Below, piece by piece: positions 1,818 through 34,120 of a stretch of DNA of 34,120 nucleotides. The stretch comes from Planctomycetota bacterium (GTDB lineage: Bacteria; Planctomycetota; Phycisphaerae; Phycisphaerales; SM1A02). Within the stretch, counting starts at the first letter, position 1, and every line of letters begins with the position of its first letter. The notes beneath the pieces were generated by a model. That model did no database searches and was not told where the DNA came from. It saw nothing but the letters and a program-made list of their open reading frames with translations. The position numbers and the translations under genes were made by a program. The stretch covers positions 1-34,120 of the forward strand of contig JADFNO010000019.1 in assembly GCA_022563315.1 (NCBI GenBank), read 5' to 3'.

Positions 1818-3179
1818 ATGGGAACACTTTGGGAAGAGAAGTCCCGGAAAAACCTGGCGGCGGTTGAGCCGCTGGCGGCGAGAATGCAGCCGCGGAACCT
1901 GGCGGAGTTTGTCGGTCAGGAGCATTTCCTGGGCGATGGCAAGCTTCTGCGCCGGATGCTCGACGCCGACCGCCTGACCTCGGTGATCTTCTGGGGCCCG
2001 CCCGGAACCGGGAAGACCGCCTTGGCCGAGGTCATCGCTGGTCACACCGGGCGGGCGTTCGAGCGGGCCCAGGCGGCGTCGATCGGCGTCAAGGAGATTC
2101 GCCGGATACTCGAGGAAAGCGAGGCGAGGCTCGAAACCACCGGCCGGCGAACGATCCTGTTCCTGGACGAGATCCACCGCTTCGCCCGCAACCAGCAGGA
2201 CGTGCTGCTGTCGGACGTGGAGCGGGGCGTGATTACATTGATTGGGGCCACGACGGAAAACCCCTATTTCGCGGTCAATAGCGCGCTGAACAGCCGATCC
2301 AGCATCTTCCGCTTCGAGCCGTTGGCCCAGGAGCACATTGCGATCCTCATCCATCGGGCGATTCGTGACGAACGAGGATTCGCCACGCTGAGGATCGAGA
2401 TCGAGGAGGAAGCGATCGCGCACTGGGCGCGAATCTGCGATGGCGACGCTCGACGGGCGCTGAACGCATTGGAAGTGGCGGTCCTCAGCCAAGGCGGCGA
2501 GTCGGTCCCTGAACCAATCATCATCGATCTGAACTGCGCCGAGGAATCGATCCAGGCCAAGGCGCTGGTCTACGACGGAACGGGCGATGAGCACTACGAC
2601 GTGGTAAGCGCGTTCATCAAGTCAATGCGGGGCAGCGATCCCGATGCGGCGGTGTATTGGCTGGCGCGAATGTTAGAAGCAGGTGAGGATCCGCGGTTCA
2701 TTGCCCGGCGGATTGCGATCTTGGCCAGCGAAGACATCGGCAACGCCGATCCACAGGCGATTCAGATTGCCGTAGCCGCATGGGAGCTGACGGAGCGGTT
2801 GGGACGGCCGGAGTGTCAATTCGCGCTGGCACAAGCGGTCGTGTACATGGCGACGGCGCCGAAATCCAACGCATCCGCCAAGGCGATCTGGGCTGCGGCC
2901 AAGGACGTGCGCGAAGCGCGCACCGTCACGGTGCCCAAGCATCTGCGCGATTCGAGTTATCGCGGCGCAAAAGATCTTGGGCACGGACAAAACTACTTGT
3001 ACCCGCACGACTCGGCCGATGGGTATGTACTTCAGGAATACCTCGGCGTCGATCGGGTCTATTACATCCCGACGAATCGCGGATTCGAAGCTGAATTACA
3101 GCGTCGACTGAAGAACCTCGAAGCGCGGGGGCCGCAAGGGGACAAGGACCAAACCCCATCGAACCCCGATCATGAATGA
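1818..3179 (+). CDS. rarA: Replication-associated recombination protein A (RarA/MgsA AAA+ ATPase)
   Basis: RarA is a clamp-loader-like AAA+ ATPase that acts at stalled replication forks. The 453-residue product has the family layout: an N-terminal PLAARMQPRNLAEFVGQ segment, Walker A GPPGTGKT (about 60-67), Walker B LFLDEIHRF (about 114-122), sensor 1 GATTENP, then the helical tetramerisation region with GSDPDAAVYWLARML and the C-terminal GYVLQEYLGVDRVYYIP motif. The length is typical. The ATG at 1818 places the conserved N-terminal box at residue 18 as in relatives; it lacks a Shine-Dalgarno site but has TACAAT 6 nt upstream. Its last 8 bases overlap the next gene, so the two are probably co-transcribed and translationally coupled. 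Confidence 0.96.
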   Translation: MGTLWEEKSRKNLAAVEPLAARMQPRNLAEFVGQEHFLGDGKLLRRMLDADRLTSVIFWGPPGTGKTALAEVIAGHTGRAFERAQAASIGVKEIRRILEESEARLETTGRRTILFLDEIHRFARNQQDVLLSDVERGVITLIGATTENPYFAVNSALNSRSSIFRFEPLAQEHIAILIHRAIRDERGFATLRIEIEEEAIAHWARICDGDARRALNALEVAVLSQGGESVPEPIIIDLNCAEESIQAKALVYDGTGDEHYDVVSAFIKSMRGSDPDAAVYWLARMLEAGEDPRFIARRIAILASEDIGNADPQAIQIAVAAWELTERLGRPECQFALAQAVVYMATAPKSNASAKAIWAAAKDVREARTVTVPKHLRDSSYRGAKDLGHGQNYLYPHDSADGYVLQEYLGVDRVYYIPTNRGFEAELQRRLKNLEARGPQGDKDQTPSNPDHE

Positions 3180-3777
3180 ACAAAACAGCCAACAAAAGGC
3201 GGAAATCCGTCGCGCAGTCTTGGCGAAGCTTGCCGCGATGGGCGATGAACAACGGCACGAAGGGTCGGTGGCCGCCTGCTCACGACTCACGGCGTTGGAG
3301 GTCTTTCAGCACGCCTCGGTCGTGATGCTCTATATGCCTCTGGCGTCCGAGGTCGATCTCACCCCGGTCGCAATCCGCTGTTTTCAAACGGGCAAGACCG
3401 TCTGCGTACCACTTGTGGATTGGAAACGCCGGGACATGGAGCCGGTGGAAGTCACGTCATTCGACGATCACGTTATGGAAGTGGATGAGCACGGCCTGCG
3501 CATGCCGCGCGGCGGCGCGCCGATCCCACCCGATCTGCTGGACCTGGTAGTGGTGCCGGGCCTGGCCTTCGATGCCCACGGGCACCGGTTGGGACGGGGC
3601 GGGGGATACTACGACCGGTTCCTCGGCCGGCTGCGGCGCACCGCCGCCACGGTCGGGCTCGGGTTCGACGTTCAGATCACGGACGAGGTTCCTGTGAACG
3701 ATGGCGACGTCTCCGTGGACATCGTGGTCACGGATCGACGCGTCACCCACGCCCGCGGATCCCGGACCAGAGGATAG
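3172..3777 (+). CDS. 5-formyltetrahydrofolate cyclo-ligase
   Basis: This enzyme (MTHFS; YgfA/FAU1 family) uses ATP to convert 5-formyl-THF to 5,10-methenyl-THF, returning a dead-end folate to one-carbon metabolism. The 201-residue protein has the family features: an N-terminal basic helix (QKAEIRRAVLAKL), the YMPLASEVDLTP segment, and the phosphate-binding glycine-rich motif GRGGGYYDRFL in the C-terminal half, preceded by LVVVPGLAFD. The length matches the family. The start overlaps the rarA stop by 8 bp and has no clear Shine-Dalgarno site, so coupling to rarA translation is likely. The last ten or so residues are basic and look non-conserved. Common symbols (fthC, ygfA, mthfs) vary, so none is assigned. 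Confidence 0.95.
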   Translation: MNEQNSQQKAEIRRAVLAKLAAMGDEQRHEGSVAACSRLTALEVFQHASVVMLYMPLASEVDLTPVAIRCFQTGKTVCVPLVDWKRRDMEPVEVTSFDDHVMEVDEHGLRMPRGGAPIPPDLLDLVVVPGLAFDAHGHRLGRGGGYYDRFLGRLRRTAATVGLGFDVQITDEVPVNDGDVSVDIVVTDRRVTHARGSRTRG

Positions 3778-3893
3778 ATTCGAGCCAGCCGGTCGACCGG
3801 ACACGCGGTGCAAGTCCAGCCCGATTCCGGTTTTGCCCGAGCGCTCAAATATCCGATAAAAGGAAGTGCCGATCCCGGTCTCAGGAGGATGGC

Positions 3894-5147
3894 GTGGTAC
3901 TACAAAGCCAATCGAGACGGCCGCTGGCGCGCTCAAGACACATGTATCGCCGAGGTCGCAGTAGGAAACTCTGGCCGACGGCGGTAGCGGTCATCGTTCT
4001 GGCGGTGGCCGGGCTCGGGCTCGTGAAGCTCTGGCCTCATCAGACGTCGACGGAGGCGCCCGCTCCTCTTGAAGAGACCGCGGGTGATGGGGTGATGCGA
4101 GAAGAATCCCGTGTTGCGCGCGAAACGCCGCCGGTGTCACCCGAAACGGTCAAGATCGCCCAAGGGGGGCGGGGCGATCGGGCGAACGCAACCGCCGAGG
4201 CCAGAGCCAGGATCGAACCTCCGGCGGCGATTGCGAATGAGGCTGACCGCGAGCGCGGCGACACGCCCGTTCAGACCGCGCTCGGCACCGACGGATCGGA
4301 TCGCTCGGTGGTCCGAGCCGAATCCCCGATGCCGCCGGTGGCGAAATCGAATCCGCCACCGGGCCCCGACCGGACGCGGGCCCAACAACGGGTCGAGTCT
4401 GGTCTTGATCTGCTGGCCCGAAACAAACCGTTAGAGGCTCGCCGCGCGCTGAGCCGCGCGCTCCTGTCAGGCTCACTCGATGAATTTGAGTCTGATCGCA
4501 CGCGCGAGCAGCTCCGCGCCCTCAACGAACGGCTCGTGTTCAGCCCGGAGATCGTCGAGAACGATCCGTATACCCAAGCCTACATCGTCCAGCCCAACGA
4601 ATTTCTCTCCACGATCGTCAAGGATCAAGGACTGGCCGTCGATTGGCGGTTCATCTTGCGAATCAACGGTATACGGGAGGCCCGCAACGTCCGAGCCGGG
4701 CAGCGCTTGAAATTGATCAGCGGGCCGTTCCACGCCGTGATTGACAAGTCCGCGTACCGGCTTGATCTGTATCTCGGCCGCGCGCCGAATCTCGTTTACG
4801 TGGCCAGTTACCCGGTCGGACTGGGTGAGTTCAACTCGACCCCGACGGGCCTGTTTCAGGTGCGGGTGAACTCCAAGCTGATCGATCCGGGTTGGACGAA
4901 CCCTCGTACACGACAGTATTACGCAAGCAAAGATCCGGAGAATCCGATCGGGGAGCGCTGGATCGGCCTGCAAGGCGTGGACGAGCACAATCGCGATCTG
5001 GTGGGGTATGGAATCCACGGCACGATCCAACCGGAGTCGATTGGTCGCCAATCCTCAATGGGTTGCATCAGAATGTTGCCGGAGGACGTGGAGATCGTCT
5101 TCGAGGTGCTAGTGGAGGGCGCCAGTACGATCGAAATTCGCCCGTAG
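3894..5147 (+). CDS. Membrane-anchored LysM and L,D-transpeptidase (YkuD) protein
   Basis: This is a predicted cell-wall cross-linking enzyme that forms 3-3 peptide links or attaches proteins to peptidoglycan. The 417 residues comprise a basic N-terminus, one membrane segment (about 27-45), a low-complexity Pro/Glu/Arg linker (50-165), a short TPR-like helical stretch (166-215), a LysM domain (about 229-275) and a YkuD domain (about 281-416). The active-site pattern is visible: IHGT with His375 and SSMGCIRM with Cys391. The GTG start at 3894 is chosen because AGGAGG (3883-3888) lies 5 nt before it; an in-frame ATG at 3942 would also keep the membrane anchor. The gene stands 116 bp after the folate gene and is convergent with the first porin. 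The substrate is inferred from the family. Confidence 0.9.
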   Translation: MVLQSQSRRPLARSRHMYRRGRSRKLWPTAVAVIVLAVAGLGLVKLWPHQTSTEAPAPLEETAGDGVMREESRVARETPPVSPETVKIAQGGRGDRANATAEARARIEPPAAIANEADRERGDTPVQTALGTDGSDRSVVRAESPMPPVAKSNPPPGPDRTRAQQRVESGLDLLARNKPLEARRALSRALLSGSLDEFESDRTREQLRALNERLVFSPEIVENDPYTQAYIVQPNEFLSTIVKDQGLAVDWRFILRINGIREARNVRAGQRLKLISGPFHAVIDKSAYRLDLYLGRAPNLVYVASYPVGLGEFNSTPTGLFQVRVNSKLIDPGWTNPRTRQYYASKDPENPIGERWIGLQGVDEHNRDLVGYGIHGTIQPESIGRQSSMGCIRMLPEDVEIVFEVLVEGASTIEIRP

Positions 5148-5205: not shown

Positions 5206-6627
5206 TCAGAACAGCAACTGGAACTGGGTTCGGATCACGACTTGCGGCTCCGCTGAGTTGCCGTCGGTGCGCCACCCGGCAAGATCACTGTCCCAGGGTG
5301 ATTCAACCGCGTAAATTCCGACCCCGATATCGGCGCTGAGCTTGATGTCATGCCCGTCGAAGTAGTAGTTGCCGCCGAACGTGATGAGATACAGATCGTG
5401 GAAATCGGCCACGCTAAGATTGAATGTCCCCCATTCGAAGCGGGTAAAGATCTCGAACTTCGGCGTGAGATAGGTACCCGCCTGGCCGACCACGCCGTAG
5501 ACGTTGACCGCACCGAATGACGGGTCATCGATGTAGTGATGAGAAAAGGAGGCAAAGGCGTTGGCGCCGCCCCACTCGGCCGAGACGTCGACCGTCCAGG
5601 CGAACCATCGCTCCTCATTTCGCCCGAACGAAAACGCTCCCGTGAACTCGTCCTGCTGATAGTGCGCGCCGACGCCGAGCAGCAGGCCGAACTCTTCATC
5701 GACGGGACTCGTGAAGTCATCGAACTGCCCCCAGCTCCCCGCGGCCAGGTATTCATACCGAGTGGTGACGGCGTACTCTGTGTCCTCGGCGAGTGCCCGC
5801 GAGTTCTGCCCATCCGTTCCGACGAGGTTGAAGCCTCCCACCTGGTCCTGGCCCGCATCAGAAAAGGCGAGACTTAACCGATTGGCCTCATCGGCGTAGG
5901 CAAACTCGATCCCCTGTGATCGACCCAGGTTCAGCGATTCATTGACCAAGGATCGCTCGACGGCAAGCTGCTTGGCCGGTGAAACCAGCTCCTCGCGATT
6001 GAACGGCAGCTTGAACTGTCCGAACCGCACATTCCATTCATTGGTCAGGTGATACCGCACCCACGCATCCTCGAGCCCGAAGTCGCCGCCGCTTCGCGCG
6101 AAGTTCCCGCGAATGAGATACGTGAGATCCCGGCTGATCACGTGGCCGCGCAACGTGATCTTCGTGCGGGTGTTCTCAAAGCCGCCCCGGTACTTGTCGG
6201 CCTGATCGTGGAAGTTCCAGATATAGCGAAACTGCTGAAGACCGGAGACCTGCAGCTTGAACCGCCCGTCTCCAGAGGCGAGGAAAAACTGCTCGCTCCA
6301 CCCGGCCGTCATCCCATCCTGCATGAGCGTGCTTCGGGTGTCGGCGTCGGCCAGCACGTCGCTCACAAGATTGCGAATCTCCTCGGCCCGCCGTTCGGTC
6401 AGCCAGTTGTCACCGACCTGCTGGCGAAGCTCGTCGATCTCCTGCTGCTGATGTTCGAGATCGCGCTGCCGGCGGCCGCCCGTCTCTTCAAGCTCACGGA
6501 TTCGTCGCAGAAGCTCGTCAATCGACGACGGCGGCGAGGCGCCAATCGTGTCATCCGCCCAGGCAGGTTCAGCCGCCAGCAACAGGCCGACTCCGACTAG
6601 CATTGAGACTCGCGCAATACGACGCAT
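5206..6627 (-). CDS. Outer-membrane porin with N-terminal coiled coil (OprO/OprP-like)
   Basis: This is a predicted outer-membrane beta-barrel channel. The 473-residue precursor has a signal peptide (1-24, cleavage after AWA), a Glu/Gln/Arg-rich coiled coil (about 35-70), a conserved neck that starts DNWLTERRAEEIRNLV (about 73-105), and then a barrel of alternating-hydrophobic strands of the phosphate-selective porin O/P type ending in FQLLF; a terminal Phe is typical for barrel assembly. AAGGAG lies 9 nt before the ATG. It is a clear paralogue of the porin at 6973-8316: the neck, the NTRTKITLRGHV segment, the REELV...QLAVERS segment and the LITFG...YYFDGHD strand all match. The gene is separated from that paralogue by a terminator, so it probably has its own promoter. 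The solute is unknown; phosphate selectivity should not be assumed. Confidence 0.88.
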   Translation of the reverse strand: MRRIARVSMLVGVGLLLAAEPAWADDTIGASPPSSIDELLRRIRELEETGGRRQRDLEHQQQEIDELRQQVGDNWLTERRAEEIRNLVSDVLADADTRSTLMQDGMTAGWSEQFFLASGDGRFKLQVSGLQQFRYIWNFHDQADKYRGGFENTRTKITLRGHVISRDLTYLIRGNFARSGGDFGLEDAWVRYHLTNEWNVRFGQFKLPFNREELVSPAKQLAVERSLVNESLNLGRSQGIEFAYADEANRLSLAFSDAGQDQVGGFNLVGTDGQNSRALAEDTEYAVTTRYEYLAAGSWGQFDDFTSPVDEEFGLLLGVGAHYQQDEFTGAFSFGRNEERWFAWTVDVSAEWGGANAFASFSHHYIDDPSFGAVNVYGVVGQAGTYLTPKFEIFTRFEWGTFNLSVADFHDLYLITFGGNYYFDGHDIKLSADIGVGIYAVESPWDSDLAGWRTDGNSAEPQVVIRTQFQLLF

Positions 6628-6972: not shown

Positions 6973-8316
6973 TCAGAAGACAAGCTGGATCTGGCTGCGG
7001 ATCACGATCTGGCCATCCTCGCCTGGTACATCCGTGCGCAGACCCGTGATCGCGGGAGCATTCGCCACCTCTTCGAGGCCGATGCCAATATCGGTCGTCC
7101 ACTTGGCGTTGTGTCCCGCGAAGTAGCGCGTCACCCCGAAGGTGATGAGGCTAAGATCCTCGACCCCAATAGTATCGAAGTCGCTGAACTCGTAGCGAGC
7201 GAAGGCTTCCCAGTCGTCGCTGAAGGCGACGCCGCCTTGGACGAGGAAGCCGACCTGATCGAGGTCCGACACCCCGGCGGTGTCGATGTTGCGATAGATG
7301 AACGCCCCGTAGAGGTTCGCGCCGCCGAACTCAGCTGAAATGTCAGCGGTTAGAACCGTCACGTCGACGTCCGCGAGACCGGCATCGGTTTCGGCCTCCT
7401 GATAGTGGAGCGCGCCACCGATCATGATGCCCTGCTCGTCGCCGGCGGGGCTGGTGAAGTCCTTGAACTGATCCCACGTGCCGGAGGCTAGGAACTCAAT
7501 CCGGCCGGTGAACGCAAAATCCGTGTCCGCCGTGCCCCAGACCGTTTGGCCGGTGTTCGCACCGTCGGTGAACGCACCGGTGACGTGGAACTGATCGCCC
7601 ATCCAGTCGACGGCGATGCCATCAACACGGCCGCCCGTGTAGATGTAATTGAGCGCCGAACGCTCGACGGCCAACTGATAGCGGCTGTCCACGAGCTCTT
7701 CGCGGAGCAACGGCGCCTTCATCGTGCCGAACAGGACCGTCATCCCATCGCCATACTTGTAGCCAAGATACGCATCGCCGGTTCCGGCGCGACCGTCGCC
7801 CGCCTGGAACGCAGCAGAAGGTGAACCTACATTGATCTCGACCTTGTAGATCCAGTCCTGGTTGACGACGTTACCAGTGAGGATGAATTTCGTTCGCGTG
7901 TTCTCAAACCCGTAACGATCCTCATCGATTGCGCCTGCGACGGCACCTTCATCCTGGTCGTTCCAAACGAACCGCTGTTGCATGTGAATGTTGGTGCGCA
8001 ACGACCAGTTCCCATCAGCACTTGAGATCACTGCCCCATTGTCGTACCCAGCGGTGACGCCTTGGGCCAGAAGACTTGCGCGGGTGTCGGCATCGGCCAA
8101 CACATCTTGCACGAGTTCTCTGATCTCGCCGGCGCGTTGCTCGGTGAGCCAGTTGTCGTTCTGCTTGGCCTCGAGCTGATCAATTCTTGCCAAGGCGCTG
8201 TCGAGCTTCGCCTTGAGATCCGTATTTGCCTCGGGAGTGGTGTCGGCAAAGCTGCCGCCGGTTAGCGCCAGCGCAGCCGCACCCACAACGAGGCCGACTT
8301 GCTTCGTCAGATTCAT
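6973..8316 (-). CDS. Outer-membrane porin with N-terminal coiled coil (paralogue)
   Basis: This is the second of two adjacent paralogous porins, 447 residues. It has a signal peptide MNLTKQVGLVVGAAALAL... (cleavage near residue 25, after SFA), a shorter coiled coil (about 32-52), the neck beginning DNWLTEQRAGEIRELV, then about 16 predicted beta strands and the C-terminal IRSQIQLVF with the final Phe expected of an outer-membrane barrel. AGGAG lies 9 nt upstream of the ATG, and an intrinsic terminator follows the stop, so the mRNA is probably monocistronic. The barrel is rich in acidic and Gly/Thr/Ala residues. Its transport substrate cannot be read from the sequence; it belongs with OprO/OprP-type proteins of Planctomycetota. 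Confidence 0.88.
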   Translation of the reverse strand: MNLTKQVGLVVGAAALALTGGSFADTTPEANTDLKAKLDSALARIDQLEAKQNDNWLTEQRAGEIRELVQDVLADADTRASLLAQGVTAGYDNGAVISSADGNWSLRTNIHMQQRFVWNDQDEGAVAGAIDEDRYGFENTRTKFILTGNVVNQDWIYKVEINVGSPSAAFQAGDGRAGTGDAYLGYKYGDGMTVLFGTMKAPLLREELVDSRYQLAVERSALNYIYTGGRVDGIAVDWMGDQFHVTGAFTDGANTGQTVWGTADTDFAFTGRIEFLASGTWDQFKDFTSPAGDEQGIMIGGALHYQEAETDAGLADVDVTVLTADISAEFGGANLYGAFIYRNIDTAGVSDLDQVGFLVQGGVAFSDDWEAFARYEFSDFDTIGVEDLSLITFGVTRYFAGHNAKWTTDIGIGLEEVANAPAITGLRTDVPGEDGQIVIRSQIQLVF

Positions 8317-11252: not shown

Positions 11253-12482
11253 TTAGAGAGCCGTCCAATCAATCGGTTTGGTGTGATCGATCATGGGCAG
11301 ATCAACCTTCATCACCTCGACGTACTTTTGGGCGGCGCCGGTGTTGAAGATCACGATCGTCTCGTTGGGCTTGATCTCGCCTTCAGCAAGGGCACGTTGC
11401 AACACGCCGATGCAGGCAGCCGACTCCGGGCACAGTGAGATGCCTTCCAACTCACACGCATCGCTCATCCATTCCTTCAGTCGTGACTCGTCGGCGGCCA
11501 TCGCCTTCCCGCCTGAGGCGCGCACCGCATCGAGAATCATGAAATCACCCACCGCCCCCGGCACGCGCAGACCGGCGGCGATCGTGCGCGCGTCTGTCAC
11601 CGGCTCGGCGAACCGCTCGCCGGCCTCAAACGCATTGACGATCGGCGGGCAACCGCTGGACTGACAGGCGTACATCCGCGGCCGGTTGTCCGTCTCAAGC
11701 CAGCCGAGTGTGGCCAGCTCGTCGAACGCCTTGCACATGCCGATCAATCCCGTGCCCCCGCCGGTCGGATACAGAATCACATCAGGAAGTCGCCAGTGCA
11801 TTTGCTCGGCGAGTTCCAGGCCCATCGTTTTCTTGCCTTCGATTCGATAGGGCTCCTTGAGCGTGGACATGTCGAACCAGCCCATCGGCTCCTTACCCTC
11901 GCGAACAATTCGGCCGCAGTCGTTGATCAGACCATCGATCAGAAAGACCTTGGCCCCGTGCAGCGCGGCTTCGTATTGATTGACGATCGGCGTATCGGCG
12001 GGCATGAACAGGTAACACTCGATCCCGGCCCGGGCGGCATAGGCGGCGAGGGCTCCCCCGGCGTTGCCGGCGGTGGGGGCGGCGACCCGTTGGATCCCGA
12101 ACTGCTTGGCCATGGAAACGGCGATCGCCATGCCGCGGGCCTTGAACGAACCGGTGGGTAGCCGCGACTCGTCTTTGATATACAGATTGCTCGCGCCGAG
12201 CTGTTGGCCGAGTCGATCGCACTTCAGCACCGGCGTCATCGTCTCGCCGAGGGAAACGATGTGCTCATCTGATTCGACCGGCAGCAGCTCGCGGTACCGC
12301 CACATGCCCGCGGTCCGATCGGCCAAGGCATCGCGGGTGACATTTTTCCGTAGGGCGGCAAGGTCGTATCGCACCCACAGCGGCCGATCGTTGTGCATCG
12401 TCTGCACGACCCCGGCCGGAAGCTCCGTGCCGTCCAAGGCCGATTCGAGATGGGTGATGTAGCTGTCTTGGTTATCGGTCAT
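11253..12482 (-). CDS. thrC: Threonine synthase
   Basis: ThrC is a PLP enzyme that converts O-phosphohomoserine to threonine in the cytoplasm. The 409 residues show a PLP fold-type II enzyme of the longer threonine synthase class: IVSLGETMTPVLKCDRL, the lysine-bearing KDESRLPTGSFKARG box in which the SFKARG Lys binds PLP, the APTAGNAGGALAAYAARAG stretch, the YPTGGGTGLIGM phosphate-binding loop, and NTGAAQKY near the C-terminus. The start is placed at ATG 12482 (MTDNQDSYITHLESALDG). An in-frame ATG at 12530 exists, but it lies only 3 nt after a TATATA -10-like element, so transcription probably begins downstream of it. The gene has no homoserine-pathway neighbours here; a small basic protein lies upstream on the same strand. 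Confidence 0.94.
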   Translation of the reverse strand: MTDNQDSYITHLESALDGTELPAGVVQTMHNDRPLWVRYDLAALRKNVTRDALADRTAGMWRYRELLPVESDEHIVSLGETMTPVLKCDRLGQQLGASNLYIKDESRLPTGSFKARGMAIAVSMAKQFGIQRVAAPTAGNAGGALAAYAARAGIECYLFMPADTPIVNQYEAALHGAKVFLIDGLINDCGRIVREGKEPMGWFDMSTLKEPYRIEGKKTMGLELAEQMHWRLPDVILYPTGGGTGLIGMCKAFDELATLGWLETDNRPRMYACQSSGCPPIVNAFEAGERFAEPVTDARTIAAGLRVPGAVGDFMILDAVRASGGKAMAADESRLKEWMSDACELEGISLCPESAACIGVLQRALAEGEIKPNETIVIFNTGAAQKYVEVMKVDLPMIDHTKPIDWTAL

Positions 12483-12881: not shown

Positions 12882-13862
12882 GTGAACTACCACTCAACCG
12901 TGCAGGAAGTGTACCGTCAAGCGGCCCGACAGCCGGCCCGCTCGCTGTGCTGTGTGCCGCAAAAACCGATGTTCCTGCCCGGGCTTCACATCCCCTCGAT
13001 CATGCACGAGATGAACTACGGCTGCGGCAGCACGGTTCATCTCCAGGACATGACGGACGGGCAACGGGTGCTCTATGTCGGCGTCGGCGGCGGACTCGAG
13101 GCATTACAGCTGGCGTACTTCACACGGCGTCCCGGCGAGGTGATTGCTGTTGATCCCGTTCAGGAGATGCGCGAAGCCGCGAAGCGGAATCTCCAGGAGG
13201 CGGCCAAGACCAACGACTGGTTTGATCCGTCGTTTGTTGACATTCGGGATGGCGACGCTTTGGAACTGCCGGTCGAGGACGAGACGATCGACCTGGCGGC
13301 GCAGAACTGCCTGTTCAACATTTTCACCACGCAGGAAGACGGCGGGGACTTGGAGCGAGCCCTGAGCGAGATGCACCGGGTGCTTCGCCCCAGCGGGCGG
13401 TTATCGATGTCCGATCCCATCACGCCCCGCCCGATGCCCAAGCATCTTCGCAACGACCCGAATCTGAGGGCGCAGTGCATTTCCGGATGCCTGACCTACG
13501 ACCGGTACATCGGGACGATGGTCGAGGCGGGCTTCGGCAGCATCGAGGTTCGGTCGCGCCGGCCGTACCGGATGCTGGACCGCCTGCGTTACGAACTGGA
13601 CGAGGATCTGCTGCTGGAAAGCGTTGAGGTCTGTGCGTACAAGGTGGCGACGCCGAGCGACGGGCCCTGCGTCTTCACCGGTCGAACCGTTATTTATACC
13701 GGCCCAGACGAATCGTTTGACGACGACCGGGGCCATGTGATGCCGCGCGACATTCCGCTTGGTGTGTGCGACAAGACGGCCGAGGCACTGGCGGCGCTGG
13801 GGCGGGACGACCTGACCGTCACCGAGTCCACGTGGCATTACGCGGGCGGCGGGTGTTGCTGA
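12882..13862 (+). CDS. arsM: Arsenosugar-type arsenite S-adenosylmethionine methyltransferase
   Basis: ArsM methylates As(III) stepwise with SAM; in arsenosugar clusters it supplies dimethylarsenite to ArsS. The 326-residue protein has SAM motif I LYVGVGGGLEAL (about 64-75) followed by the acidic VIAVDP strand, and Cys residues suited to thiolate arsenic binding: SLCCVPQ (Cys23, Cys24), NYGCGS (Cys48), QNCLFNIF, the pair in QCISGC, and a terminal GGGCC. The long C-terminal part (FTGRTVIYTGPDE...RDIPLGVCDKTAEALA) and the CC end are typical of the ArsM form found beside arsS rather than of stand-alone ArsM. The start is GTG 12882, with a CATAAT -10-like hexamer at 12847-12852. ArsS follows after 62 bp on the same strand, so the two probably form one operon. 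No ArsR, ArsB or ArsC is adjacent. Confidence 0.88.
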   Translation: MNYHSTVQEVYRQAARQPARSLCCVPQKPMFLPGLHIPSIMHEMNYGCGSTVHLQDMTDGQRVLYVGVGGGLEALQLAYFTRRPGEVIAVDPVQEMREAAKRNLQEAAKTNDWFDPSFVDIRDGDALELPVEDETIDLAAQNCLFNIFTTQEDGGDLERALSEMHRVLRPSGRLSMSDPITPRPMPKHLRNDPNLRAQCISGCLTYDRYIGTMVEAGFGSIEVRSRRPYRMLDRLRYELDEDLLLESVEVCAYKVATPSDGPCVFTGRTVIYTGPDESFDDDRGHVMPRDIPLGVCDKTAEALAALGRDDLTVTESTWHYAGGGCC

Positions 13863-13881
13863 TCTTGTTCGTCGTCAAGAA

Positions 13882-13905
13882 GCGCTCGCCTTTGGCTCGC
13901 GGCTA
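13882..13905. repeat. Imperfect palindrome in the arsM-arsS gap
   Basis: The stretch CGCTCGCCTTTGGCTCGCG (from 13883) is an imperfect palindrome between arsM and arsS. It resembles the short intergenic GCTCGCC/GGCTCGCGG elements that recur in Planctomycetota genomes. That resemblance is from memory; only one copy is in this window. It could act as an mRNA stem between the two genes. Confidence 0.35.
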
Positions 13906-13924
13906 AACGGGGCGGAATCTGATC

Positions 13925-14929
13925 GTGTCCACGCTCCAACTTCCCATTCTCAACGGCACGCATTTCAAGGCCCACTTCGAGGCTGAGCTCCGCGCCGCGG
14001 GAACGATCACCACGTTGCAGATCAACATCGGCTACGTCTGCAATCTCGCCTGCCACCACTGCCATGTCGAATCGTCCCCAGCTCGAACCGACCCGCAGGA
14101 CAACATGGACGAGGCAACTGCGGCGCGAGTGATTGACTGGACGCTCAAGCAGCCGACATTGAAGACCGTAGACTTCACCGGCGGCAGCCCCGAGATGAAC
14201 CCCCACTTCCGGCTGATGGTCGAGACATTTCGGGGGCAGGGCCTGCATGTCATAGACCGCTGCAACCCCACGATCATCGGGTTCGTCGACAAGAAGACGG
14301 GTGAAGACTATTCGTGGGTTCCTCAGTTTCTCGCCGCGAACCAGGTCGAGGTCGTTGCGTCCATGCCTTGTTACTCGCAGGAGAACGTCGACGCCCAGCG
14401 GGGGCGCGGCGCGTATGACGACTCGGTCGCCGGCCTGCTGAAGCTCAATGGGGTGGGCTACGGGATCGAGCCGTCGCTGCCGCTGAACCTCGTGTACAAC
14501 CCGGTCGGGCCGCATCTTCCGCCGGCCCAGGACGTTCTGGAAGTCCAGTACAAGCGCGAGCTGCAGCAGCGTTTCGGGTTGGTCTTCAATGAACTGTGGA
14601 CGATCACCAACATGCCGATCAAGCGCTGGCGGCATCAGTTGGAGCGCCAAGGCCAGCTTGAGCCGTACATGAGCCTGCTGATCGACAACTACAATCCGGA
14701 CACGATCGACGGCCTGATGTGCCGGCGCCAGATCAGCATTGACCCGCAAGGACGCCTCTACGACTGTGATTTCAATCAAGCGTTGGGCATGCACACGCCG
14801 GGCCTGGAAGCGGCATATATCTGGGAAGAAACAGCCGATGCGCTGGCTGAGCGCGTGATCGCAACTGGCGACCACTGCTATGGTTGCACGGCTGGATGCG
14901 GTAGCAGTTGCGGCGGCGCGATCACCTGA
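13925..14929 (+). CDS. arsS: Arsenosugar biosynthesis radical SAM protein ArsS
   Basis: ArsS is a radical SAM enzyme that adds a 5'-deoxyadenosyl group to dimethylarsenite, giving the precursor of arsenosugars. The 334-residue protein carries the 4Fe-4S motif CNLACHHCHVES (Cys39, Cys43, Cys46), the glycine-rich DFTGGSPEMNPHF strand, the family segment VASMPCYSQENVDAQRG, LPLNLVYNPVGPHLPP, and a C-terminal Cys-rich tail CYGCTAGCGSSCGG (Cys318, 321, 325, 329). Some relatives are selenoproteins; here these positions are ordinary Cys codons and no in-frame TGA interrupts the gene. It starts at GTG 13925. It lies 62 bp after arsM and is convergent with nuoH. The family assignment is firm; the in vivo product in this organism is inferred. 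Confidence 0.9.
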   Translation: MSTLQLPILNGTHFKAHFEAELRAAGTITTLQINIGYVCNLACHHCHVESSPARTDPQDNMDEATAARVIDWTLKQPTLKTVDFTGGSPEMNPHFRLMVETFRGQGLHVIDRCNPTIIGFVDKKTGEDYSWVPQFLAANQVEVVASMPCYSQENVDAQRGRGAYDDSVAGLLKLNGVGYGIEPSLPLNLVYNPVGPHLPPAQDVLEVQYKRELQQRFGLVFNELWTITNMPIKRWRHQLERQGQLEPYMSLLIDNYNPDTIDGLMCRRQISIDPQGRLYDCDFNQALGMHTPGLEAAYIWEETADALAERVIATGDHCYGCTAGCGSSCGGAIT

Positions 14930-16632: not shown

Positions 16633-19600
16633 TCATCGGTTCTTCGCCGCCTCTTGTGCAGATCCCGCTTGTGCCTGGACCGTCTGGATATCGAGCGCGT
16701 CTTGGGAGCGGCCGGGCTCGTGGCTTGGAAAGTAATCCTGCAGCGCAGCCACCGACCACGCCCCCGCCCGCAGAGCCACGATCGCCTTGACCACCGCGTT
16801 AGCGCCCGTGATGGTGGTGATCATCGGCACCCCAGCTCGAACCGCGGTGGCTCGAATCTTCCCCTCGTCGGTGTGAGCGCCCTTTCGCGTCGGCGTGTTG
16901 ATGATGAGGTGAATCTCGCGGTTGGCGATCTTGTCCAGAATGTTCGGACGCGCCCCCTCCGAGATCTTCCGCAGCAGGACTGTGTCCACCGAGTATTCAT
17001 GCAGAAGCTCGTGCGTGCCCTTGGTCGTGAAGACTGTGAACCCCAGCGACACCAACGTCCGCGTGAACTGTACGCAATGCGATTTGTCGGAATCTCGCAC
17101 CGATAGAAAGACGTTGCCCTGCGTCGGCAGCTCGATTCCGGCCCCCATCTGCGCCTTCGCCAGGGCGATGTGAAGTGATCGATCCATGCCCATTACTTCC
17201 CCGGTCGAGCGCATCTCAGGGCCGAGGATCACATCCACCCCCGGAAATCGCGCGAAGGGAAAGACCGACTCTTTCACCGAGAAGAACCCCGCATCCGGGA
17301 TTTCCTTCACGCCAAGCTCCGTCAGCGACGCGCCCATCATCACCTTCGCCGCGACGCGGGCCCACGACTGGCCTTTGGCTTTCGAGACGAACGGCACCGT
17401 GCGCGAGGCCCGTGGGTTCACTTCCAGGATATAGACCTCGTCGTTCTTGACCGCCATCTGCACGTTCATCAAGCCGCGGACCTTGAGGCGCTCCGCCAAG
17501 CGACGCGCAATGTCCTTGATCTGATCGACCACTACCGGTCGAAGCGAGTAGGGCGGGATCGTGCACGCCGAGTCGCCGGAGTGAATCCCCGCTTCCTCGA
17601 TGTGCTCCATCACCCCGCAGATCAGCGCTCGTGGCTCGTACTCCGACCCCTCCGTGCCTTCGTGCCTCCGTGCCTCTGTGCCTTCCCCAAAATCCCCCAC
17701 CACATCGACATCGACTTCGATCGCTTCCGAGAGGAACCGGTCGATGAGCACCGGCGCATCGGCCAGGTCGGACACATCGACGGCGGTGCGCATGTATCGC
17801 CGCAGTGACACTTCGTCGAAGCAGGTTTCCATCCCGCGCCCACCCAGGACATAGCTCGGGCGAACCAGCACCGGATACCCGATTCGAGTCGCCACACTGA
17901 CCGCCTCGTCCAGCGAATAGGCGATGCCGTTGTACGGCTGGGTCATCCCCAGTTCTTCAAGCATCACCTTGAACCGATCTCGATCCTCCGCCAAGTCGAT
18001 CGAATCCAGGGCCGTGCCGATGAGGGGAACACCCGCGGCCACGAGGCCGTGCGCGAGGTTCAGCGGCGTCTGCCCGCCGAACTGCACAATGCAGCCCGCC
18101 ACCTTGCCGCTTCGATCCGGGACGTCGATCCCCCCGCCGTTGAGCCGCTCGACCACGTTCAGCGTATCTTCCAGCGTCAACGGCTCGAAGAACAGGAGGT
18201 CCGATGTGTCGTAATCCGTGCTCACCGTCTCCGGATTCGAGTTGATCATCACCGACTCGAATCCCATTTCCCGGCAGGCGAACGCAGCCTGGCAGCAGCA
18301 GTAGTCAAACTCGATGCCCTGGCCGATGCGGTTCGGCCCGCCCCCGAGGATGATGATCTTGCGGCGATCGGTGACGCGGATTTCATCCTCGCAGACAACG
18401 CCGGGCAAGCCCGGGGCTATATATGGTGTTTCGTACGTCGAGTAGTAGTACGGCGTCAGGGCTTCGAACTCGGCGGCGCAGGTGTCCACCAGCTTGTACA
18501 CCGGCTCGATCTTGAGACGCTTGCGGTGATCGCGGACTTGCAGAATCGTGTCCGTCGAAATCCCATCGAGATACACATACGCCAACTGCGGATCGGAATA
18601 GCCCAACTGCTTGGCTTTGAACAAGACGTCGCGGGGCAGATCGTCGAGTCGCTCATATAAGAAAAGCTCGTCCTCGAACTCGACGAGTTGCTGGATCTGA
18701 TCCAAGAACCACGGGTCGATGTGCGTCAAGGCCGCGATGCGGTCGATCGACCATCCCATCTTCATCGCGTAGCGGACGAAGTAGAGCCGGCCCTGGCTCG
18801 GGACGCTGAGCTTGCGCATCAGCGTTTCCTCGGGAATGGGCCAGACGACTCTGGAACCATCGGCGGCGACGAGGGGATCGGATTCAGTCGGCCCAACCCG
18901 GGCGGCGGCTCGTTTGGCCAAGAGCCAATGATCGTTGCGATCCAGCCCCAACCCGAAGCGCTTTACCTCCATGGACCGGATCGCCTTTTGCAGGCTCTCC
19001 TTGAATGTTCGGCCGATGCTCATCGCCTCGCCGACCGATTTCATCTGCGTGGTAAGGGTCTCGTCGGCTTCGGGGAACTTCTCGAAGGTCCAGCGCGGCA
19101 TCTTGGTGACGACGTAGTCGATCGACGGCTCAAAGCACGCGCTGGTCGTGCCCGTGACATCGTTCCGCAGCTCGTCCAGCGTGTACCCCACCGCGAGCTT
19201 GGCCGCGATGCGGGCGATGGGGAACCCCGTGGCCTTGGACGCCAGGGCGGAGCTGCGCGACACGCGCGGATTCATCTCGACGACGACCATCTCGCCGTCG
19301 CGCGGGTTGACGGCAAACTGGACGTTGGAGCCGCCCGTATCGACGCCGATCGCTCGCATGATGGCGATCGCCGCGTCTCGCATTCGTTGGTATTCCTTGT
19401 CCGTCAACGTCTGGATTGGGGCCACGGTGATCGAGTCGCCCGTATGGACGCCCATCGCGTCGATATTCTCGATGCCGCAGACAATCACACAGTTGTCCTT
19501 GCGGTCGCGAACGACTTCCAGCTCGAACTCCTTCCACCCGATGACGGACTGATCGATCTCGATCTGGCCGATCATGGAGGCGTCGATCCCACGCTGGACC

Positions 19601-20187
19601 AGGTCCTCAAATTCGTCGCGGTTGTAGGCGATGCCGCCGCCGGCCCCCCCCATCGTGAACGCGGGGCGGAGGATCACGGGCAGACCGATCTCGTCAAGAA
19701 ACCGCCAGGCTTCGTCCAGATTGGTCACCGTCAGCGCCCGTGGCAGCCGCAGGCCGATCGACTTGATCACCGCGATGAACTTCTCGCGATTCTCGGCCCG
19801 GTCGATCGCCTCCCGCGTGGCCCCGATCATCTCGATCCCGAACTTCGCCAAGGTCCCGTCGTCATACAACGCACAAGCGGTGTTCAAGGCGATCTGGCCG
19901 CCCAGGGTCGGCAGCAGGGCATCGATCGGTGTGCCGTTGGCCTTCTCCTTGGCGATGATCTTGGTGACCGCTTCGAGCGTGATCGGCTCGATGTACGTGC
20001 GGTCGGAGAACTCCGGGTCGGTCATGATCGTCGCTGGGTTGGAGTTGACCAGCACGATGCGGTAGCCGTCCTCCCGCAAGGCCTTGCACGCCTGGGTCCC
20101 TGAATAGTCAAACTCACAGGCCTGGCCAATGATAATCGGCCCGGAACCCAGGATCAGAATCGTGCTGATGTCATCGCGTCGGGGCAT
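16633..20187 (-). CDS. carB: Carbamoyl-phosphate synthase large subunit
   Basis: CarB makes carbamoyl phosphate from bicarbonate, two ATP and ammonia passed from CarA, for arginine and pyrimidine synthesis. The 1184-residue protein has the duplicated layout: a first synthetase half starting [19 protein letters not shown] with the ATP-grasp box [12 protein letters not shown], a central oligomerisation region, a second half starting [19 protein letters not shown] with ATP-grasp box [11 protein letters not shown], and a C-terminal MGS-like allosteric domain (about 1030-1170). It is about 110 residues longer than the E. coli protein. Part of the excess is an insertion near residues 834-851 of the second ATP-grasp domain ([18 protein letters not shown]), encoded by a tandem 8-bp repeat where E. 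coli has only a few residues. All main motifs are intact. carA is not in the window. TATTGT lies about 30 nt before the ATG. Confidence 0.97.
17649..17680. repeat. Four tandem 8-bp units inserted in frame in carB
   Basis: On plus the sequence is four units of CCTYYGTG in a row (CCTCCGTG, CCTTCGTG, CCTCCGTG, CCTCTGTG); on the coding strand the unit is CACRRAGG. Because 8 is not a multiple of 3, the units are read in different frames, giving the low-complexity peptide EARRHEGTE. Aligned from memory with E. coli CarB, the surrounding protein is conserved on both sides (DVDVVGD before, ALICGVMEH after), so the repeat sits in a surface loop of the second ATP-grasp domain. Confidence 0.8.
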
Positions 20188-26151: not shown

Positions 26152-26231
26152 ATGACCTCACGGGGGTCGCTTGACCAGTGCCCGGGCCCGCAATCTTTGC
26201 GACCAGCCGTGGCCGTGCCGAGGACGCCTTC

Positions 26232-26237
26232 TACACT
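26232..26237 (+). promoter_or_regulatory. -10-like TACACT six bases before the RAYT ATG
   Basis: TACACT is followed by 6 nt (TTGAGC) and the ATG at 26244. The hexamer and spacing are the same as for radA and the methyltransferase. It supports the ATG at 26244 over upstream in-frame codons and suggests the transposase is expressed from its own promoter. Confidence 0.45.
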
Positions 26238-26243
26238 TTGAGC

Positions 26244-26795
26244 ATGGTTGGACTGCTCACGTGGCCCACGTACGGAACGTGGTTCCCCGGTCAAGGCAGA
26301 GGTCGCATCGACCTTGAACCGGATCAGCCCGTCCGCTCGGTGCCCGAGCCGGTCCCCCTTGACGCCGCCCGTCGGCCGCGCGATGCCCCCTGGCCACCGG
26401 TTCGACTCGATGATCACCAGCGGCGGGCCGTGGCGAAGGACCTGATGCGCATCGCCGAGCTGCGCGAATTCAAGCTGCACCTGGTCATCGTCGCCGAAGA
26501 TCACGTGCACGTGCTTCTCTCGGGCGAACCCCAGGACGACATCCCTCGGCTCGTGCAGTTGATCAAGGGGGCGCTGAGCCGCAAGCTCACCGTCGTCGCC
26601 GGTGATTCGCCGCCGCGCTCATCGTCCGGCCGGGCGCTACCCCACCACAAGTGGTGGACCCGGCAATACGCCTTCCTCACCGTTGACAACCGAGCCGCGC
26701 TCGATCATATCTGGCCGGAACTTCTTGCTCATGCCCAGCAGGACGACGTGCTGTGCGAGGTGTTCAGCGACCGCCCGTCCATCCCGGTGGATTGA
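26244..26795 (+). CDS. REP-associated tyrosine transposase-like protein (Y1_Tnp, RAYT)
   Basis: RAYTs are single-copy, domesticated relatives of IS200/IS605 transposases that bind and cut REP hairpins in single-stranded DNA. The 183-residue protein starts MVGLLTWPTYGTWFPGQGRG, the family's LxTWxTYGTWLPG box, and has the HUH metal-binding motif in VAEDHVHVLLSG (His-Val-His, about residue 90). A later helix WWTRQYAFLTVDN holds a Tyr, though I cannot tell which Tyr is catalytic. There are no IS ends or target duplications around it, which fits a RAYT rather than an IS. A REP-like element lies about 6 kb upstream (20293) and another palindrome 1.5 kb downstream (28247). Whether it is active is unknown. 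Confidence 0.8.
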   Translation: MVGLLTWPTYGTWFPGQGRGRIDLEPDQPVRSVPEPVPLDAARRPRDAPWPPVRLDDHQRRAVAKDLMRIAELREFKLHLVIVAEDHVHVLLSGEPQDDIPRLVQLIKGALSRKLTVVAGDSPPRSSSGRALPHHKWWTRQYAFLTVDNRAALDHIWPELLAHAQQDDVLCEVFSDRPSIPVD

Positions 26796-33435: not shown

Positions 33436-34120
33436 CACCCCGCCCAACACACCAGCCGCGCCTGTTGACCATCCGCAGCGGCGGATGGGTGCTCCTGGCG
33501 GCCGGCGCGTGCACGCTAGCGATACTCATCTTGGTGGTCATCGAGATTCGTCCCCCGCTCATCGGCAAGCCCGGCGACCTGGCCAGCTATGGATTTGACC
33601 TCACGACGTGCCTCATACCGCAGGATCAGATTGTCGCCGGCCGTCTGCGCAAGGACGCGCAGCAGGCCCTCGTCGATCCGGCTGTCATCGACGGCGACGA
33701 GATTACCGATCTCAACGCCCAGCTCTATGGCAAGTATCTCGTTTCGTCCGATCGCGTGATCGGCGTCGAGATCAACGGTGAATCGCGCGCCTACCCGCTT
33801 CTGGTTCTGAACTGTCACGAAATCGTCAACGACACGCTCGGCGGCGTGGCGATTGCCGTCACCTACAACCCGCTCTGCGACAGCACCGTCGTGTTCGAAC
33901 GAACGGTGGCCGGCGAGACGCTCGAGTTCGGTGTCAGTGGACTGCTCTATAACTCGAACCTGATGATGTTCGATCGCCGGCCCGACGCTCAGGGCGAGAG
34001 CCTGTGGAGCCAACTGTTGGGTCGTGCGATCGCCGGGCCTGCCGCTGAATCCGGACGTGAACTAGCGGCTGTACCTGCCTCGGTGACACGCTGGGCGGAA
34101 TGGCTGGCGTTACATCCGCA
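33432..34120 (+). CDS. DUF3179 domain protein, 3' end cut by the window
   Basis: The frame starts at ATG 33432 in an ATGA overlap with the ctaB stop and stays open to the window end (about 229 codons). There is one N-terminal membrane segment (about 18-38; GGWVLLAAGACTLAILILVV), so the rest should be periplasmic. The DUF3179 signatures are clear: VIGVEINGESRAYPLLVL, NCHEIVNDTLGG, TYNPLCDSTVVFER and FGVSGLLYNSNLMMFDR. The conserved Cys in NPLCDS and His in NCHE suggest a metal or redox site, but the family has no established function. Translational coupling to heme O synthase hints at a part in cytochrome oxidase biogenesis (inference). No signal cleavage site is evident, so it is probably an anchored protein. 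Confidence 0.88.
   Translation, partial: MTPRPTHQPRLLTIRSGGWVLLAAGACTLAILILVVIEIRPPLIGKPGDLASYGFDLTTCLIPQDQIVAGRLRKDAQQALVDPAVIDGDEITDLNAQLYGKYLVSSDRVIGVEINGESRAYPLLVLNCHEIVNDTLGGVAIAVTYNPLCDSTVVFERTVAGETLEFGVSGLLYNSNLMMFDRRPDAQGESLWSQLLGRAIAGPAAESGRELAAVPASVTRWAEWLALHP

Follow-up and report, generated by a model that had tools for sequence, protein, structure and literature searches.

The first steps of bacterial arsenosugar synthesis have been described in Synechocystis, where SsArsS acts together with SsArsM (excerpts of PMC8552651, in which the pair of Synechocystis sp. PCC 6803 is cited to Xue et al. 2019), and the adenosylation of arsenic by radical S-adenosylmethionine (SAM) enzymes is described in PMC12159101. 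A related arrangement is arsQML of Burkholderia gladioli, belonging to arsinothricin, in which ArsM has a C-As bond-forming radical SAM enzyme as its neighbour (same excerpts of PMC8552651). Here we surveyed and analyzed the arsM and arsS genes of a Planctomycetota bacterium (GCA_022563315.1), which lie in a stretch of 34,120 nucleotides referred to here as the window; the window is the entire contig C283 of an assembly of 3.76 Mb in 298 contigs, 96.5% complete. As with SsArsM-SsArsS in those excerpts, an arsenite methyltransferase and the radical SAM enzyme ArsS would work one after the other, whereas the proteins belong to families other than those of arsQML. Judged from its sequence the arsM-arsS pair probably converts toxic arsenite to a nucleoside-like arsenic compound, and we consider it highly probable that it opens the known arsenosugar pathway of bacteria, the later steps of which would be performed by unlinked genes.

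The ArsM type was matched by at least 587 stretches, and the best 80 loci, which form the set of named loci used here, come from planctomycetes, deltaproteobacteria, flavobacteria and many cyanobacteria; the closest among them are metagenome-assembled genomes (MAGs) of planctomycetes, namely L097 (Planctomycetota bacterium B23T1B5, a contig of 3240 bases) and L098 (Phycisphaerales bacterium OFTM33). An ArsS was located in 58 of these best 80 loci, and in 21 it lies downstream with its start at most 250 bases from the ArsM end, therefore the two-gene arrangement is not unusual. The cyanobacteria Microcystis and Chlorogloeopsis also have an ArsM of the NF038099 type with adjacent ArsS; the window differs from the cyanobacterial loci in its planctomycete host, in the location of the unit between thrC and nuoH, and in ArsS identity of about 42-47%. 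Planctomycete ArsM is assigned to group IV in PMC5552862, PMC13171826 offers general remarks only, and our literature searches returned no report on arsenosugar genes in planctomycetes.

The assignment of genes was done with curated bit cut-offs (NF038099, 400; TIGR04167, 300; NF040538, 500; TIGR04283, 182; NF004991, 620), and the conservation of ArsS was followed in two alignments, A2 with 31 ArsS relatives and A3 with 56 aligned ArsS, both containing the window and at least 5 common genomes. For A3, 55 of the 58 locus sequences were entered, L107 being dropped for its broken frame and L130 and L157 because their frames ran on without a stop. Coordinates were taken from tblastn, as the gene caller missed arsS in L043, L051 and L066 and gave a short start for the window arsM. 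The features of the pair are as follows.

12882 to 13862, plus strand: arsM, arsenosugar-type As(III) S-adenosylmethionine methyltransferase of 326 amino acids, GTG start, GGGCC end, NF038099
13925 to 14929, plus strand: arsS, radical SAM enzyme with DUF3641, 334 amino acids, GTG start, TIGR04167 and PF12345
14039 to 14062, plus strand: CxxxCxxC motif of the radical SAM [4Fe-4S] cluster, ArsS C39/C43/C46, invariant in 31/31 (A2) and 56/56 (A3)
14720 to 14767, plus strand: ArsS C266-x9-G276-x4-C281, putative first half of a SPASM/twitch-like cluster site, with C266, G276 and C281 invariant
14876 to 14911, plus strand: ArsS tail CxxC(x7)C, with C318, C321 and C329 invariant and C325 variable

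A preliminary description of this DNA had placed ArsM with its GGGCC end and ArsS next to each other on one strand, and this holds, with the frames as placed and 62 bases between them. ArsM reaches 534.8 bits with NF038099, the model of the ArsM arsenite methyltransferase in arsenosugar biosynthesis. ArsS matches TIGR04167, the model of the radical SAM (seleno)protein ArsS of the same pathway, at 396.5 bits and as the sole match of the genome above that cut-off, and it also matches PF12345 (176.8 bits) and Radical_SAM. The GTG start of ArsM is credible because residues are conserved from Y3 onward in 13/13 relatives, and since the pair also recurs in other genomes, chance is excluded for it. 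Among 79 complete ArsM sequences of the named loci (one further sequence ran off its contig) the end is GGGCC in 75 and GDGCC in 4, with CC last in 79/79, hence this ending is a hallmark of the family. Ten cysteines of ArsM are invariant in the 13 relatives (23, 24, 48, 143, 199, 203, 263, 296, 325 and 326), and the profile search against solved structures matched CmArsM (4kw7, 4fr0; E about 5e-21), in which C72, C174 and C224, which we take to be the catalytic As(III)-binding residues, align to C48, C143 and C199.

It is very improbable that the pair makes some other organoarsenical, for instance an amino acid similar to arsinothricin, through an ArsS that moves another part of SAM. The window ArsM reaches 93.6 bits against the arsinothricin-type NF040538, well below 500, compared with 534.8 against NF038099, and ArsS passes TIGR04167 with no ArsL among the families listed for it. 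What speaks for such a product comes from a sister family, where the partner methyltransferase is nearer to NF040538 (330.6 bits for the ArsM of L061, also below 500), therefore ArsS can pair with different methyltransferases. In the clusters L061, L063, L064 and L069, from sister families within the same taxonomic order, ArsS stands with an ArsM as in the window, and that ArsM is about 365-426 amino acids long as called and 27-29% identical to the window's. Across L058, L061, L063, L064, L067, L068 and L069 the ArsM that accompanies ArsS is likewise of another, longer kind (identity to the window's 27-30%), and the methyltransferase partner has therefore been swapped in evolution.

The same preliminary description had proposed that four tail cysteines of ArsS (318-329) bind an additional cluster or the arsenical. 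They are located at 318, 321, 325 and 329, and the alignment of the tails upheld three of them; an equal role of all four is rejected, as position 325 is Cys in only 10/31 (A2) and 17/56 (A3) sequences, therefore one of the four is not needed and C325 would appear dispensable. The cysteines invariant in 56/56 sequences are 39, 43, 46, 266, 281, 318, 321 and 329, while C149, invariant in 31/31 of A2, is Cys in 35/56 of A3. The SPASM/twitch motif is defined as CX9-15GX4C followed by CX2C, and a full SPASM domain has seven Cys. ArsS shares the CX9GX4C and CX2C motifs with SPASM/twitch enzymes and follows the pattern through C266/G276/C281 and C318/C321 in 56/56 sequences. Unlike the full SPASM enzymes it lacks the set of seven, having five invariant non-core Cys in A3 (266, 281, 318, 321 and 329), which may belong to a one-cluster twitch domain.

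The AlphaFold model of ArsS (mean predicted local distance difference test, pLDDT, 87.0; predicted template modelling score, pTM, 0.88; residues 330-334 below 50) supports a C-terminal domain of SPASM/twitch type. Its best fold matches by Z are SkfB (18.9; root mean square deviation, rmsd, 3.2 over 235 aligned residues), SuiB (17.3), ChlB (17.0), BlsE (17.0) and anSMEcpe (16.9), structure neighbours being listed by Foldseek as well. The likeness to SkfB 6efn, SuiB 5v1s and anSMEcpe 4k38 covers residues of about 24-319 (Z 16.9-18.9, rmsd 3.2-3.8) at an identity of 12-19%, and in most of the top rows the alignment extends to about residues 316-323; the sequence comparison to solved structures covers just the N-terminal radical SAM part. 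From the conservation and the model, the likeliest role of C266, C281, C318 and C321 is to coordinate a single auxiliary [4Fe-4S] cluster. With these four taken up by the putative cluster, C329 would be left as a free and invariant thiol, the best candidate for contact with the arsenical.

A lesser possibility is that C318, C321 and C329 form a joint three-thiol arsenical site and no auxiliary cluster exists. Three-thiolate As(III) sites are common and the label of PF12345 still gives no function for this domain, which both favour this site, but the C266-x9-G-x4-C281 and CxxC arrangement fits the SPASM/twitch pattern and enzymes of that type lead the fold matches. It is also conceivable, although we hold it to be unlikely, that the two enzymes are a hand-over pair in which the GGGCC thiols of ArsM pass the trivalent dimethylarsenical to ArsS C329 beside the auxiliary cluster and the intermediate is never free; this would explain the conserved Cys-rich tails on both proteins.

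For the arsenosugar entry steps the following course may be proposed. As suggested by its family and conserved cysteines, ArsM would bind As(III) via C48, C143 and C199 and methylate it with SAM to dimethylarsinous acid. By analogy with characterised relatives, the [4Fe-4S] cluster at C39/C43/C46 of ArsS would cleave a second SAM to the 5'-deoxyadenosyl radical, which would combine with the dimethylarsenical to give 5'-deoxy-5'-dimethylarsinoyl-adenosine, while the auxiliary [4Fe-4S] cluster on C266/C281/C318/C321 would reside in the SPASM/twitch-like domain. The earlier prediction of 5'-deoxyadenosyl-dimethylarsine as product is thus in line, by analogy, with SsArsS/SsArsM and radical-SAM adenosylation in the parts of PMC8552651 and PMC12159101 that describe them. 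The later steps, adenine removal and glycosylation, may be carried out by PNP-type nucleosidases, a TIGR04283-like block on contig C226 and a TIGR04282 glycosyltransferase whose gene has probably fallen into a gap of this assembly. Independently of these, an arsR-arsM pair on contig C119 would, as its family assignment suggests, sense arsenite and perform simple methylation.

The pair occupies a fixed chromosomal slot, the borders of which are in the same position in relatives.

11253 to 12482, minus strand: threonine synthase gene (thrC), upstream border of the slot, NF006050 566.9 bits
15307 to 16539, minus strand: nuoH (NADH dehydrogenase), downstream border of the slot, PF00146 386.6 bits

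Among the 11 genomes of the window's family that bear NF038099, 9 show the whole order thrC(-) arsM(+) arsS(+) nuoH(-) (the window, G014, G022, G023, G025, G031, G033, G045 and G058), and in the remaining two, G001 and G026, it is cut by contig ends and agrees as far as it goes. In the NF038099 genomes of another family (G077, G088) the pair is in another location. The unit looks like a vertically kept one with losses and not like a mobile island. A lone ArsS in G032 (L054, 7517-8524) adjoins nuoH in the same slot with no NF038099 ArsM. In L102, a contig labelled, perhaps wrongly, as Deltaproteobacteria (Ww563), arsM-arsS-nuoH follow one another as in the window's family, with 67-73% identity. 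The MAG G001 (7% contamination) has arsM copies on the separate contigs L020 and L091, with 91% and 96% identity to that of the window, and these probably stem from two strains.

Around the genes, the sole Rfam match up to E 0.1 for an upstream RNA regulator scores 17.5 against a gathering value of 40, the promoter search gave no sigma-70-like promoter, and terminators are at chance level. Two neighbouring Porin_O_P (phosphate-selective porin) genes, at 5206-6627 and 6973-8316 of the minus strand, may be a route of arsenate entry.

The absence of arsR, arsB, arsC and an arsenic transporter nearby, as noted previously, was confirmed among 24 of the 27 called genes of the window (16633-20187, carB by eye, 26178-26795 and 33489-34118 being left out), and the pair is not part of a canonical ars resistance operon with arsR, a pump or a reductase beside the genes. 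An absence of arsR was rejected at genome level given the arsR-arsM pair on C119, where an ArsR-type regulator with Cys-rich ends (NF033788, 72.6 bits, cut-off 55) overlaps the start of a canonical ArsM (NF008823 / PRK11873, 276.8 bits, cut-off 263); six HTH_5 matches are present in the genome, one of which adjoins this ArsM. ACR3 and ArsP were not found in the genome, and ArsB and ArsC were not searched genome-wide. In L038 a fusion of an ArsR-type DNA-binding domain with a methyltransferase (5528-6478, plus strand, 316 amino acids, NF033788 65.3 bits) was observed about 1.6 kb from the arsM of the arsR-arsM pair.

The genome-wide check for nucleosidase and glycosyl genes, suggested together with that for arsR, returned three PNP_UDP_1 nucleosidase-type genes, which could be the source of the nucleosidase, and a row on C226 made of VTT (PF09335, 83.0 bits), a TIGR04283-like glycosyltransferase and a flavin adenine dinucleotide (FAD) oxidoreductase. 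Regulation and later steps had been expected to be elsewhere or absent, and they are mostly elsewhere (C119, C226 and the three PNP_UDP_1 genes), with TIGR04282 not found and a gap suspected. The sister-family ArsS, in contrast, lies near DUF547, VTT, FAD oxidoreductase and TIGR04283/TIGR04282 genes, so that the window has just two genes together and the rest dispersed where the sister families have long clusters; the VTT, glycosyltransferase and FAD oxidoreductase types of these clusters are the ones that form the C226 row. In L061 the neighbours of ArsS are the ArsM nearer NF040538, DUF547, VTT, a GT87-like protein, the FAD oxidoreductase (776.3 bits against NF004991) and a glycosyltransferase that matches TIGR04283 (269.1) and TIGR04282 (199.3), two models to which NCBI gives arsenosugar-biosynthesis names; L063, L064 and L069 also have ArsS in longer clusters with BLAST clusters in common with the L061 genes. 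In four relatives (L078-L081) DUF547 adjoins a TIGR04283-like gene distant from arsM-arsS.

Co-occurrence was counted in 101 genomes, ArsS being above the cut-off in 30 and the remaining 71 taken as ArsS-negative, including G042 (partial ArsS of 117 bits at a contig edge) and G026 (arsM cut by a contig end). TIGR04282 is present in 27/30 ArsS genomes and 6/71 others (Fisher p 1.3e-15), DUF547 in 26/30 and 7/71 (p 8.5e-14), TIGR04283 at E<=1e-30 in 18/30 and 8/71 (p 1.1e-6), and ACR3 in 11/30 and 23/71 (p 0.82), all p-values assuming independent genomes although these are related and kinship is ignored. A link to an arsenite pump was rejected on this ACR3 count. Within the window's family TIGR04282 occurs in 12/13 genomes with ArsS and 4/48 without, and TIGR04282 and DUF547 thus co-occur with ArsS while unlinked to it in this family.

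Besides the neglected kinship, several observations weigh against an arsenosugar pathway completed by unlinked genes. TIGR04282 and DUF547 were not found in the window's assembly, and of the other ArsS genomes only two are without TIGR04282. The C226 genes stay below their cut-offs (glycosyltransferase 159.3 against 182 for TIGR04283, FAD oxidoreductase 477.1 against 620 for NF004991) and may therefore serve something else. The genus-mate G002 (assembly 66% complete) has nuoH and carB without an adjacent arsS, therefore the unit is not universal even within the genus. Some of this would suit a stand-alone detoxification, in which the pair ends at deoxyadenosyl-dimethylarsine that is exported or kept and no arsenosugar is made: none of TIGR04282, DUF547, ACR3 and ArsP was found in the assembly and the C226 matches are sub-threshold. 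We regard it as quite unlikely, since TIGR04282 accompanies ArsS in nearly all the ArsS genomes counted above and is present in both genus-mates, and the absence of its entire neighbourhood from this assembly resembles a gap. In the genus-mate G001 it is located at L177:3131-3856 (140.3 bits) and adjoins a response-regulator gene, and the stretch of L177 from about 2430 to 4350 holding both has no DNA match in the window's assembly, so that an assembly gap is likelier than a loss of TIGR04282. The unlinked TIGR04282 gene adjoins a response-regulator gene in L177, L178, L180, L182 and L184 (of L177-L184), an unexplained neighbour.

The arsM-arsS pair of this planctomycete is a well-placed but ordinary example of the known two-enzyme entry to arsenosugar synthesis, and the added value of the data lies in the correction of the tail cysteines, the fixed slot and the unlinked candidates for the later steps. 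The ArsS cysteines worth mutating are narrowed to 266, 281, 318, 321 and 329, and a genome-wide co-occurrence signal is provided for TIGR04282, TIGR04283 and DUF547, genes of the later steps that have been little tested. The data place the entry to arsenosugar synthesis in uncultured planctomycetes and indicate that the pathway can be split across several chromosomal sites.
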